From an uncultured Porphyromonadaceae bacterium (lineage in GTDB: Bacteria > Bacteroidota > Bacteroidia > Bacteroidales > Muribaculaceae), in the NCBI GenBank assembly GCA_947176605.1, contig CAMWRH010000001.1, positions 50,598 through 114,597 of the forward strand: 64,000 bases of DNA, in the 5' to 3' direction. Made by a program: the position numbers and the translations under genes. The notes under the pieces are model-generated. The model was not told the origin of the DNA. It saw only the letters and a program-made list of their open reading frames with translations, and did no database searches. Positions 40,771-46,242 of the stretch are shown here, piece by piece (position 1 is the stretch's first letter; each line of letters starts with the position of its first letter).

Positions 40771-41529
40771 TCACTTGCTGATATAAGGATATTTTACATC
40801 CCATAGGAACAGGCCTTGAGGCGGCATGGATGTTCCGGCGGCACATCGGTCGAGGCTGTCGATTATTTGGCGGAAATCTTCGACTGATAGCTTCCCGCGA
40901 CCTACATCCACAAGCGTGCCTACCACGGCCCTTACCATATTGCGCAGGAACCGATCGGCCGTAATTGTGAAAACGATACCGGGGACGCCGTAAATGCTGT
41001 CTGACTCCTCCCACCGGGCATACCGCACGTCGCATATGTTGGTACGCGCATCTGAATGCAGCTTGGCGAATGATGTAAAATCGCTTGTCTCGCAGAGTAA
41101 TGCAGAGGCCTGGTTCATGGCTCCGATATCAAGGACTGTCGGTGAATGCCACGACACATTGCGAAGAAACGGAGACTTCTCATACACTATGAAATACTTA
41201 TAGCTGCGCTCTATGGCATCAAAACGCGCGTGAGCATCTGCAGATACTTCGATTAGCTGCTGGAGTGACACTGCCGGTCCCACAAGCCTATTTAATCCGC
41301 TAAGCAATTTAGCGGGATTATCAATGGGACTGACCGTATCGAAATGCGCATACATTGTGCGTGCATGCACTCCGGTATCCGTGCGTCCGGCCCCGACAAT
41401 AGGTGTCGGGGAGCGGAGCACGGTTGCCAAAGCTTCTTCGATTGTCTGCTGTACGGAGACGGCGTTCGGCTGTGTCTGCCATCCATGGAAGCCGGATCCG
41501 TCGTATGCAAGGCGAAGGAAGTATCTCAT
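40771..41529 (-). CDS. truA: tRNA pseudouridine(38-40) synthase
   Basis: 252 aa; YDGSGFHGWQTQPNAVSVQQTIEEAL, GAGRTDTGVHA. Confidence 0.95.
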   Translation of the reverse strand: MRYFLRLAYDGSGFHGWQTQPNAVSVQQTIEEALATVLRSPTPIVGAGRTDTGVHARTMYAHFDTVSPIDNPAKLLSGLNRLVGPAVSLQQLIEVSADAHARFDAIERSYKYFIVYEKSPFLRNVSWHSPTVLDIGAMNQASALLCETSDFTSFAKLHSDARTNICDVRYARWEESDSIYGVPGIVFTITADRFLRNMVRAVVGTLVDVGRGKLSVEDFRQIIDSLDRCAAGTSMPPQGLFLWDVKYPYISK

Positions 41530-43433
41530 CAGTCGCGTTCTTCAAGATAAGTGATGCCGTAAAGGCCCGAACGGTAGATATTAAGGAACTGTCGCCCTTC
41601 CTCGGGTGAGATTACATGCTCCTTTACTGATTTCGATACCCAGGATTCGAGGTTGCGCACAAGTTTCTTGGTGTTGTACTCCACATAATCGAGCACATCA
41701 GCCACGGGCTCTCCATCAATCACCTGCTCAATCTGATATCCATCTTTGGAGCCTGTGATGTGCACGGCAGCAGTATCGCCGAACAAGTTATGCAGATCGC
41801 CCAATATTTCCTGGTAAGCACCCACAAGGAATACGCCGATATAGTAATGTCCGCCTCGTGTGAACTTATGCACAGGTAATGACGATGACACTCCCTGTGG
41901 AGAGACAAAGCGGTTGATCTTGCCGTCACTGTCGCATGTCACATCCTGAATCGTACACAACTGCGTAGGCTTCTCGTCAAGACGTGAAATAGGCATCACC
42001 GGGAAGAGCTGGTCGATAGCCCATGAATCCGGTAATGACTGAAACAGCGAGAAATTACAGAAATACTTCTCAGGCAACATTCTCGCCACTTTACGCAACT
42101 CTTCCGGCGGATGCTTCATATTCTGGGCGATATCGTTGACATCGCGTGCCACGCTCCAGAAAAGCTTCTCGATCTGCGCCCTTGTGGTAAGGTCGAGCAT
42201 TCCGAGGCTAAACAGTTCCAATGCCTCCTCTCTGATCTGGAGGGCATCATGCCAGTCTTCAAACACACGGGCCGGATTAATCTTATCCCATATGTTGTAA
42301 AGCTCCCGGGTAAGCTCATGAGCGTCGTCATTGAGTTTATCTTTTTCTTCATCCCATTCAGGCAGCTGGGTAGTCTCGAGCACCTCGATGACAAGTACCG
42401 AATGATGTGCCGTCACTGATCTGCCGCTTTCCGTAATGATATTCGGATGAGGCAGATCATTCTTTACACATACATCCACCAGAGCAGCCACCGAATCGTT
42501 GACATACTCCTGGATCGAGTAATTCATGGAGTTCTCACCGGATGCTGACCGAGTCCCGTCGTAGTCCACTCCCAAACCTCCGCCAATATCCACAAACTCT
42601 ACGGCGAATCCCATTTTTGACAGCTGCACATAGAATTGCATTGCCTCGCGCAGGGCATTCTTGATACGGCGGATTTTGGTAATCTGACTTCCGATATGGA
42701 AATGAATCAGTTTTAGACAATCCGTCATATCATTGTTGCGAAGGAATTCAAGCGCCTCAAGCAGTTCGCTTGAGTTAAGGCCGAATTTGCTGACATCGCC
42801 TCCCGACTCTTCCCATTTTCCACTACCGGATGAGGTGATTTTTATCCGTATGCCGATATTGGGTTTTACATCAATCCGGCGTGCCACATCGAGTATCAGT
42901 CGCAATTCATTGAGCTTCTCTACCACGAGATAGATCCGGCGTCCCATCTTCTGGGCCAGAAGCGCCAGCTCTACGTAATCTTCATCCTTGTATCCGTTGC
43001 AGATGATGACGGAATTGCTGTGGGCATTGACTCCAAGTACGGCATGAAGTTCGGGCTTCGAACCTGCTTCGAGCCCGATATTGTATTTATTGCCGTGACT
43101 CACAATCTCTTCCACTACCTGACTCATCTGGTTGACCTTGATAGGGTAGACCACAAAGTTCTGACCCGCATAATTGTATTCTTTAGCGGCTTTGGCAAAA
43201 CAATTGGTAATCTTCTGAATGCGGTCGTCGAGTATGTCGGGGAAACGCAGCAGTACAGGAGCCGAGACATCTCTAAGCCGGAGTTCTTCCATCACCTCTT
43301 TCAGATCAATTGGAGCGTAATCCTGGCGAGGGACTACCTGCACATTTCCCTTCTCATTGATTGAAAAGTATTTCAATCCCCAGCCTCCAATGTTGTAGAT
43401 TTCAGCTGAATCCTCAATACGCCATTTTCTCAT
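41529..43433 (-). CDS. speA: Biosynthetic arginine decarboxylase
   Basis: Start at MRKWRIEDSAEIYNIGGWGLKYF; VYPIKVNQMSQVVEEIV, GLEAGSKPELHAVL; upstream ORF extension ignored. Confidence 0.94.
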   Translation of the reverse strand: MRKWRIEDSAEIYNIGGWGLKYFSINEKGNVQVVPRQDYAPIDLKEVMEELRLRDVSAPVLLRFPDILDDRIQKITNCFAKAAKEYNYAGQNFVVYPIKVNQMSQVVEEIVSHGNKYNIGLEAGSKPELHAVLGVNAHSNSVIICNGYKDEDYVELALLAQKMGRRIYLVVEKLNELRLILDVARRIDVKPNIGIRIKITSSGSGKWEESGGDVSKFGLNSSELLEALEFLRNNDMTDCLKLIHFHIGSQITKIRRIKNALREAMQFYVQLSKMGFAVEFVDIGGGLGVDYDGTRSASGENSMNYSIQEYVNDSVAALVDVCVKNDLPHPNIITESGRSVTAHHSVLVIEVLETTQLPEWDEEKDKLNDDAHELTRELYNIWDKINPARVFEDWHDALQIREEALELFSLGMLDLTTRAQIEKLFWSVARDVNDIAQNMKHPPEELRKVARMLPEKYFCNFSLFQSLPDSWAIDQLFPVMPISRLDEKPTQLCTIQDVTCDSDGKINRFVSPQGVSSSLPVHKFTRGGHYYIGVFLVGAYQEILGDLHNLFGDTAAVHITGSKDGYQIEQVIDGEPVADVLDYVEYNTKKLVRNLESWVSKSVKEHVISPEEGRQFLNIYRSGLYGITYLEERD

Positions 43434-43503
43434 TTTGTTGATATTATAGCTTTCTATTGTTATACTTGGGTTATATACGCATGTATGGGGTGTATCTGTT
43501 ATC

Positions 43504-43854
43504 CTACTGAGTCCGGGGGGCGGACTGGGCAGATGCACCTTGTCCGAGCAACTCAAGATAGACCACTTCGACTTCTGCGACTCTTCGCTTGATTTTGTAG
43601 CGGTCCTCGAATTCACGATAACGCATTTTCCCTTCTACATATACGCGCGAACCCTTTCTGACATAACGCTCTGCCACGACCGCATTGCGACCGGTAAGGA
43701 TACATGTATGCCAGTCTGTGATTTCAACACCCGATGCCCCTTTAGGTTCGCTTGTAGCAAGGGAGAACCGCGCTATTGCAAAATCTTTCTCCGGATATCG
43801 CATTTCGGGGTCATTACCCACATAACCTAAAAGTATGATCTTATTTACCGACAT
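43504..43854 (-). CDS. ssb: Single-stranded DNA-binding protein
   Basis: 116 aa OB fold; MSVNKIILLGYVGNDPEMRY, GSRVYVEGKMRYREFEDR. Confidence 0.9.
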   Translation of the reverse strand: MSVNKIILLGYVGNDPEMRYPEKDFAIARFSLATSEPKGASGVEITDWHTCILTGRNAVVAERYVRKGSRVYVEGKMRYREFEDRYKIKRRVAEVEVVYLELLGQGASAQSAPRTQ

Positions 43855-44906: not shown

Positions 44907-45404
44907 TCAGAACGGAGGAATATAGTGCTTCAGTGGCACAAACCGACCCAGCACAGCCATCTTCTCTTCCTCTGTCATACCCTCTCTCAACACGGCCATG
45001 ATTGTATTGCCACCGGCTATGGTGCCGAGTATATCGGGGCAGTTGCTGATATCTATATCATATGCCAGGCCGGATGCATAGCCATTGCGGGTCTTTATGA
45101 CGGCGATATCTCCGGATAATGCCAAGGATATGAAGCCACTCTGATAGTTGGCGTTCATATCGAGCTGACCGGCTGCAAGCAATTTGTCTTTAAGCGAGTT
45201 ACTGTCCGGAAGCACATATACATACGTGCCGCGGTCAGTCGGCACTTTTGTGGTGTGCAGCATCTTGAGGTCTCGGGAGAGTGTGGCCTGTGTCACCTTG
45301 AAGCCTACTTCGGCAAGTTTGCGTGCAAGTTCTTCTTGCGATGAGATACACTGGGTTTTGATGAGTTCCACAATGACCTCGACTCTTTTTCTTCGATTTT
45401 TCAT
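44907..45404 (-). CDS. argR: ArgR-family transcriptional regulator
   Basis: MKNRRKRVEVIVELIKTQCISSQEELARKLAEVGFKVTQATLSRDLKML; C-terminal ILGTIAGGNTIMAVLRE; track ORF starts 14 codons earlier. Confidence 0.92.
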   Translation of the reverse strand: MKNRRKRVEVIVELIKTQCISSQEELARKLAEVGFKVTQATLSRDLKMLHTTKVPTDRGTYVYVLPDSNSLKDKLLAAGQLDMNANYQSGFISLALSGDIAVIKTRNGYASGLAYDIDISNCPDILGTIAGGNTIMAVLREGMTEEEKMAVLGRFVPLKHYIPPF

Positions 45405-45531
45405 TGCTTTCGTATTGATTGGATTATATGTCCACTTGCTTTCCATAGCTTATACCGTCAATTGACAGTATGCATCTGCAAGCGGATAGTTGATTTGATT
45501 TGAAATCTGAACTGGGAAGATTACATTTTAT

Positions 45532-46242
45532 TTATGACTGGCGCCTGCGCAACAGGTTTTTCAGTCGGGCCGCAACCTCATATTTTTCCTCAGCTGCAAA
45601 TTTGCTTATCTGTGTCTCTATTTCTTTATCGGAATAATTCTTGAGGAAATCAAGTATCTCGGCATCCGCATCTTCGGAATTTACGGAAGAGGCGATGAGT
45701 TCCTCTATCCCGGCAAATGATTCAATGGCCGGGTTGCTACGGGATACGGCTTTACGGAGCAATTCCTCTCCCTTGCTGGCCGCATCCGGCATATCTTCCA
45801 CATCCTCTGCAGGCTGTGCTGATTCCTGTTTTGGAGTAAAGCCTGCTTCATCCAGCACTTCTGCTGTAGTGTAAATAGGGGATCCGGTACGCACCGCAAG
45901 TGCCAGAGCATCCGATGAGCGGGCGTCTATTTTGCACAGTTCGCCCTGCGGGCCTTCCATTACAAGATCTGCCGCGAAGACTCCGCTCGGAAGTTTATGG
46001 ATGTCCACACATGACAGTTTGAGATTGAATGTCTCCATCATGTTCTTGATCAGGTCATGGGTCAGCGGACGTGGTGGAGTCACCTGCTGAAGCTTGCATT
46101 CGATCGACTGTGCTTCCGGATATCCAATAATGATCGGAATCCGGCGTAATCCATCCACTTCCTCAAGAATCACCGCATAGACCCCTGATTCTATCTGATT
46201 ATAGGTGATTCCTATCAATCTTAATTGATGTCGTTTCTTCAT
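45532..46242 (-). CDS. Bifunctional nuclease (DUF151) family protein with C-terminal UVR-like motif
   Basis: 236 aa; SGVYAVILEEVDGLRRIPIIIGYPEAQSIECKLQ, IDARSSDALALAVR, C-terminal KYEVAARLKNLLRR. Confidence 0.88.
   Translation of the reverse strand: MKKRHQLRLIGITYNQIESGVYAVILEEVDGLRRIPIIIGYPEAQSIECKLQQVTPPRPLTHDLIKNMMETFNLKLSCVDIHKLPSGVFAADLVMEGPQGELCKIDARSSDALALAVRTGSPIYTTAEVLDEAGFTPKQESAQPAEDVEDMPDAASKGEELLRKAVSRSNPAIESFAGIEELIASSVNSEDADAEILDFLKNYSDKEIETQISKFAAEEKYEVAARLKNLLRRRQS

Follow-up and report, generated by a model that had tools for sequence, protein, structure and literature searches.

A Muribaculaceae ArgR without the guanidinium-gripping aspartate, conserved next to an ArgC-like pseudoenzyme

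ArgR is the textbook example of a regulator that senses its corepressor, and the aspartate at position 128 (D128) is its best-known contact with the ligand. In the E. coli protein D128 grips the guanidinium group, and the backbone groups of the ligand are contacted by Q106, D113, T124, A126, D128, D129 and T130 (PMC2880562). Some ArgRs without an equivalent of D128 have already been noted in a published analysis (PMC7248756), and therefore the bare absence of this residue is not new. In Lactococcus lactis, which carries both ArgR and AhrC, one protein of the family binds DNA and the other senses arginine (PMC6586332).

The ArgR analysed here shares with E. coli ArgR, B. subtilis AhrC and M. 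tuberculosis ArgR the two-domain layout, the recognition helix, a collinear C-terminal domain and a predicted fold match, but it reads GGNT in place of GDDT and has Asn instead of P102 (E. coli numbering), and neither its locus nor its genome carries a canonical ARG-box signal. It is orthologous to the GDDT ArgRs of other Bacteroidales, with the ancestral argR...argC...ssb order still visible, whereas those proteins keep D128, D129 and P102, most of them have an upstream ARG box, and the active site of the accompanying ArgC is intact. It also differs from the L. lactis arrangement, in which a further paralogue of the ArgR family is the partner; this genome has no paralogue, and the neighbour of argR is a dead ArgC.

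The gene lies in a stretch of 64,000 nucleotides, the window, from an uncultured bacterium assigned to the Muribaculaceae (Table 1). The open reading frame encodes 165 amino acids beginning MKNRRKR, and its translation agrees with the one given by a sequence-only reading of the same DNA; an upstream ATG at 45446 would give 179 amino acids, but the start at 45404 is favoured by the relatives. The N-terminal winged helix-turn-helix domain scored 84.7 bits against Arg_repressor (PF01316, cut-off 27), the C-terminal oligomerisation and arginine-binding domain scored 59.6 bits against Arg_repressor_C (PF02863, cut-off 25), and the whole protein scored 118.2 bits against the NCBI equivalog TIGR01529, below its cut-off of 130.45. 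In a monomer prediction both domains fit ArgR structures.

Table 1 Features of the argR locus, in window positions.
Feature	Positions	Strand	Evidence
speA, encoding biosynthetic arginine decarboxylase, a downstream neighbour conserved across the genus	41529..43616	-	TIGR01273 787 bits, over cut-off; synteny
ssb, conserved downstream neighbour, overlaps the end of pseudo-argC by 14 bp	43504..43854	-	synteny
pseudo-argC, ArgC-like pseudoenzyme without catalytic Cys and without the catalytic loop of about 20 amino acids	43841..44845	-	TIGR01850 score, predicted fold
argR, ArgR-family regulator, winged helix-turn-helix plus C-terminal oligomerisation/ligand domain, GGNT for GDDT	44907..45404	-	Pfam PF01316 and PF02863
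Codons for G131-G132-N133, aligned with E. coli G127-D128-D129	45006..45014	-	alignment and family survey
Codon for N107, at the position of E. coli P102	45084..45086	-	pocket-position survey
bfn-type gene (bifunctional nuclease domain), immediately upstream of argR in genus loci	45532..46242	-	PF02577, synteny

The sequence-only reading had described an ArgR that has lost the aspartate pair but kept its DNA-binding segment, and the translation, the ungapped alignment and the two Pfam domains bear this out. At the motif the window protein has Gly-Gly-Asn (codons GGT GGC AAT) where the ArgRs of known structure from M. tuberculosis, B. subtilis, B. halodurans and B. stearothermophilus have Gly-Asp-Asp, so the guanidinium-contacting aspartate is absent, while the helix-turn-helix segment VTQATLSRDLK is intact and near-invariant across relatives. 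Two findings that would have spoken against that reading did not materialise: neither the C-domain nor the N-domain model found a second ArgR in the window genome, canonical or otherwise, and no aspartate is supplied by an adjacent segment, the acid of a nearby YDID stretch having been rejected as a substitute, as it is present in GDDT-bearing relatives too.

The survey of relatives covered ArgRs from genomes of the genus, family and order to which this bacterium belongs and from named GTDB genomes, among which Muribaculaceae are prominent. Position 128 was Asp in 0 of 72 Muribaculaceae rows (38 from the genus and 34 from the rest of the family) versus 35 of 36 rows from other Bacteroidales, counts that include some near-duplicate rows, the window's among them. 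The earlier suggestion that the loss is peculiar to this protein thus gave way to a trait of the whole family. The residue found instead is A, S, T or G, with GSDT, GTDT, GANT, GSNT and GGNT occurring in the genus and mostly GADT in the other genera of the family. Since position 128 is never Asp in either set of rows, and since L106, the species closest to the window's in the ArgR tree, has GANT, GGNT is not a chance event or a sequencing error. On that tree, whose deep branches are weak and which served solely to test clustering of the D128 state, this state changed 3 times against a mean of 37 after shuffling; replacement of D129 by Asn is scattered among ArgRs and needs several changes. Elsewhere, Treponema (spirochaete) ArgRs such as L245, L256 and L258 have GDNC or GENC at this motif.

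The rest of the pocket has changed in a consistent way. In the wider set of rows tabulated for the pocket, where some named loci were placed in the family by similarity and not by taxonomy, position 102 is N in 44 of 45 genus rows and mostly N in the Muribaculaceae, whereas all 36 rows of other Bacteroidales have P. In the family, G at position 107 and Y at position 110 are fixed or almost so. The equivalents of D113, T124 and T130 are invariant in the Muribaculaceae and D129 is usually kept; within the genus the mean entropy is 0.40 bits at pocket sites versus 0.76 bits in the domain core. Moreover argR has a dN/dS of 0.014-0.043 in close species pairs, indicating purifying selection. Invariant backbone-contact positions, low pocket entropy and low dN/dS together argue for a constrained pocket that has been re-specified, not for decay. 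Literature searches found no paper on Muribaculaceae ArgR, and to our knowledge a family-wide loss of D128 within a changed pocket is undescribed.

The surroundings of the gene are also conserved. Nearly all genus loci examined have the order doxX, mnmA, bfn, argR, pseudo-argC, ssb, speA, truA and ligA, the real start of speA in the window probably lying near 43433. Because most other genomes of the family and order have argR-GNAT-argG-argC-argD, sometimes with ssb downstream, the stretch from argR through pseudo-argC to ssb looks like a remnant of the native arginine operon. In about half of the genus species no more than 30 bp separate argR from bfn, which leaves scant room for autoregulation. 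Two genus loci, L176 and L178, have no argR and a gap of less than 25 bp between bfn and pseudo-argC, with pseudo-argC, ssb and speA kept.

Arginine synthesis in the window genome is encoded on a different contig, by a complete GNAT-argG-argC-argD-argF'-argB-argE-argH cluster from which argR is absent (L167 7220-15698, contig C5). Both here and in a related species of the genus (L278) this cluster lies inside the ribosomal spc operon, flanked by rpsN and rpsH; its occurrence in two species argues against an assembly error, and its position makes expression together with the ribosomal proteins plausible. Its ArgC nests among non-Muribaculaceae Bacteroidales, as does its ArgG with weaker support, so horizontal transfer is likely. 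Judging from the gene content, the arginine of this organism would be made by this second, argR-less cluster, which was probably transferred. Across the genus, canonical ArgC was found in 10 of 25 genomes and was absent from 15, several of them about 99% complete, and most of these 15 have retained argR and pseudo-argC.

The neighbour of argR had been called an ArgC-like pseudoenzyme, and rightly so. It scores 79.7 bits against TIGR01850, below the cut-off of 233.6, its catalytic Cys is replaced and about 20 residues of the catalytic loop are deleted; it shares with N-acetyl-gamma-glutamyl-phosphate reductase (ArgC) the semialdehyde dehydrogenase fold, as judged from a predicted structure (pLDDT 89.6) for which ArgC structures rank first with a TM of about 0.8. 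In the ArgC tree the protein falls on the native Muribaculaceae side, and its dN/dS of 0.017-0.057 in close species pairs again indicates purifying selection. A Muribaculaceae ArgC in which Cys is replaced by Ser and the catalytic loop is intact (L120 5130-6101) appears from its sequence to be an intermediate toward the pseudoenzyme.

Position and loss of the active site go together. Among 54 named loci, the Cys was absent from all 31 ArgCs encoded directly behind argR and kept in all 23 encoded about 1.3-2.6 kb away. Of 101 genus genomes, 95 carry the pseudoenzyme (42 of 42 good ones) and 84 carry ArgR (38 of 42 good ones); 11 of the 101 have the pseudoenzyme without ArgR and none has ArgR without the pseudoenzyme. 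A tandem also occurs in a Bacteroidaceae MAG (L223 2986-4442), where a GDDT ArgR is directly followed by an ArgC with its catalytic Cys changed to Asn; that ArgC is most closely related to ordinary ArgCs with the Cys from other Bacteroidales, which points to a separate origin. The proposal that the two genes form a regulatory pair therefore gains from the recurrence of the tandem in a separate lineage, which suggests a link between ArgR and the pseudoenzyme, but an obligate pairing is weakened by the 11 genomes that keep the pseudoenzyme alone, which also imply that it has a role of its own.

Canonical ARG boxes precede argR in 12 of 19 other Bacteroidales (p<=0.05); among the family loci 7 of 20 have one, and among those of the genus 1 of 20. 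Among 13 family loci that combine a native operon with a non-Asp pocket, 7 have a box that departs from the motif at one position at most, and in 5 of them the match is exact, the seven box-bearing loci having been inspected because they scored highly in the preceding upstream scan. As these boxes precede native operons, the sister ArgRs without D128 appear to be still wired to arginine synthesis, and the loss of D128 is not by itself an uncoupling from arginine metabolism. In the window genome no ARG box was found at argR, pseudo-argC, speA or the arginine cluster, and there was no excess of such boxes (exact matches, 1 versus 1 in the control; one mismatch, 8 versus 9); nor did the argR-less arginine clusters examined in the genus have a good box upstream. 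With no motif excess and no good box at the clusters, the wiring seems gone or changed in this genus.

Several candidate signals did not hold up. The sole exact match in the window genome (L262) equals the control count, and the adjoining open reading frames listed include no arginine gene. A near-perfect 20-bp palindrome, ATACTGTCAATTGACGGTAT, lies at window positions 45450-45475, just 5' of the first argR ATG, and was not seen in the other genus loci examined, among which no shared operator or dyad upstream of argR was found. An apparent excess of boxes in another genome (G029, 45 versus 10) consists mostly of one repeated sequence; TGCATAAATTTGCA occurs at or near many of its contig ends (positions 131-144), mimics ARG boxes in scans and is probably the end of a mobile element.

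The substitution, its phylogenetic spread, the selection on the gene, the synteny and the absence of ARG boxes are results of computation. At the level of sequence they describe a real and constrained variant of ArgR, with a pocket change that extends over the family and an apparent uncoupling from the arginine genes in this genus. The reading that we prefer, with a probability of about 0.4, is that the window encodes a working, single-copy ArgR of a Muribaculaceae type whose pocket has been re-specified and which probably controls its own unit and not arginine synthesis. Replacement of the gripping D128 by one of the small residues A, S, T and G, with N mostly standing in for P102, G fixed at position 107 and Y at position 110, would have altered the side-chain end of the pocket, and retention of D113, T124, T130 and usually D129 would preserve the part that holds the ligand backbone. 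The ligand would most likely still be an amino acid of arginine metabolism, recognised by a side chain that no carboxylate holds. Citrulline would be the first candidate, an idea that rests on a reported D128N study by Niersbach et al. from 1998. As the genus lost its native arginine operon, argR and the dead argC would have stayed behind, and argR, now within bfn, argR, pseudo-argC, ssb and speA, would probably control this unit and, through speA, arginine decarboxylation.

A possible but less probable account is that the protein still responds to arginine, the loss of D128 being offset at the trimer interface by N102, Y110 or the YDID acid, perhaps with a weaker affinity that suits a high arginine pool. 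The altered pocket may indeed still serve arginine feedback, because sister ArgRs reading GADT stand at the head of native arginine operons, with an ARG box at 7 of the 13 examined; the backbone-contact residues are invariant, and the contacts of the E. coli and B. subtilis proteins largely differ apart from two Asp (PMC7248756). These two Asp are, however, precisely the contacts that both proteins have in common (PMC7248756), the window protein lacks D129 as well, and the pocket positions tabulated hold no new acidic residue that is absent from GDDT relatives. We consider it unlikely that ArgR and the pseudoenzyme act as a two-protein module, in which the non-enzyme would bind a cofactor or metabolite and modulate ArgR, in the manner of a trigger enzyme that has become a dedicated partner. 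The strict association of adjacency with Cys loss, the separate Bacteroidaceae tandem, the selection on the pseudoenzyme with its predicted fold kept, and the finding of ArgR only in genus genomes that have it all agree with this, and there is an analogue in E. coli PepA, which works with ArgR and whose catalysis is dispensable for transcriptional regulation (PMC6245113). Against it, the pseudoenzyme persists without ArgR in 11 of 101 genomes, with bfn and pseudo-argC adjacent in L176 and L178, and common ancestry in one operon accounts for the adjacency without any interaction.

Two further accounts do away with the ligand or with the function. The sequence-only reading had suggested a constitutive regulator, and E. 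coli ArgR mutants that fail to bind arginine still bind their sites, according to Burke et al. 1994 as cited in PMC9241672. Ligand-free binding of this kind would fit the loss of D128 across the family, the loss of D129 in the window protein and an unchanged DNA-binding helix, but a pocket without a ligand should drift, and few parts of this domain are as conserved as the pocket is, which makes this account improbable. That the gene is a decaying relic of the lost arginine operon we regard as hardly credible: argR and pseudo-argC do look like leftovers of argR-GNAT-argG-argC-argD, and argR is missing from some genus genomes, yet where it occurs, in 84 of 101, it is intact and under purifying selection, with helix-turn-helix and pocket conserved.

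The re-specified Muribaculaceae ArgR that we favour would make an abundant family of gut bacteria, without D128 but with the rest of the pocket under selection, a natural experiment on how a ligand pocket is re-specified. The repeated survival of ArgR with a dead ArgC raises the broader question of whether an enzyme can outlive its biosynthetic pathway by serving as a partner in regulation. The boldest form of the proposal, which we hold to be doubtful, is that ArgR and a dead ArgC are a recurring regulatory module: having lost arginine synthesis, separate Bacteroidales lineages would each have kept ArgR with a catalytically inactive ArgC as its partner, and in the Muribaculaceae the ArgR pocket would have been re-specified to a new ligand. 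If true, what was once a repressor of biosynthesis would there regulate other processes, for example the synthesis of polyamines.
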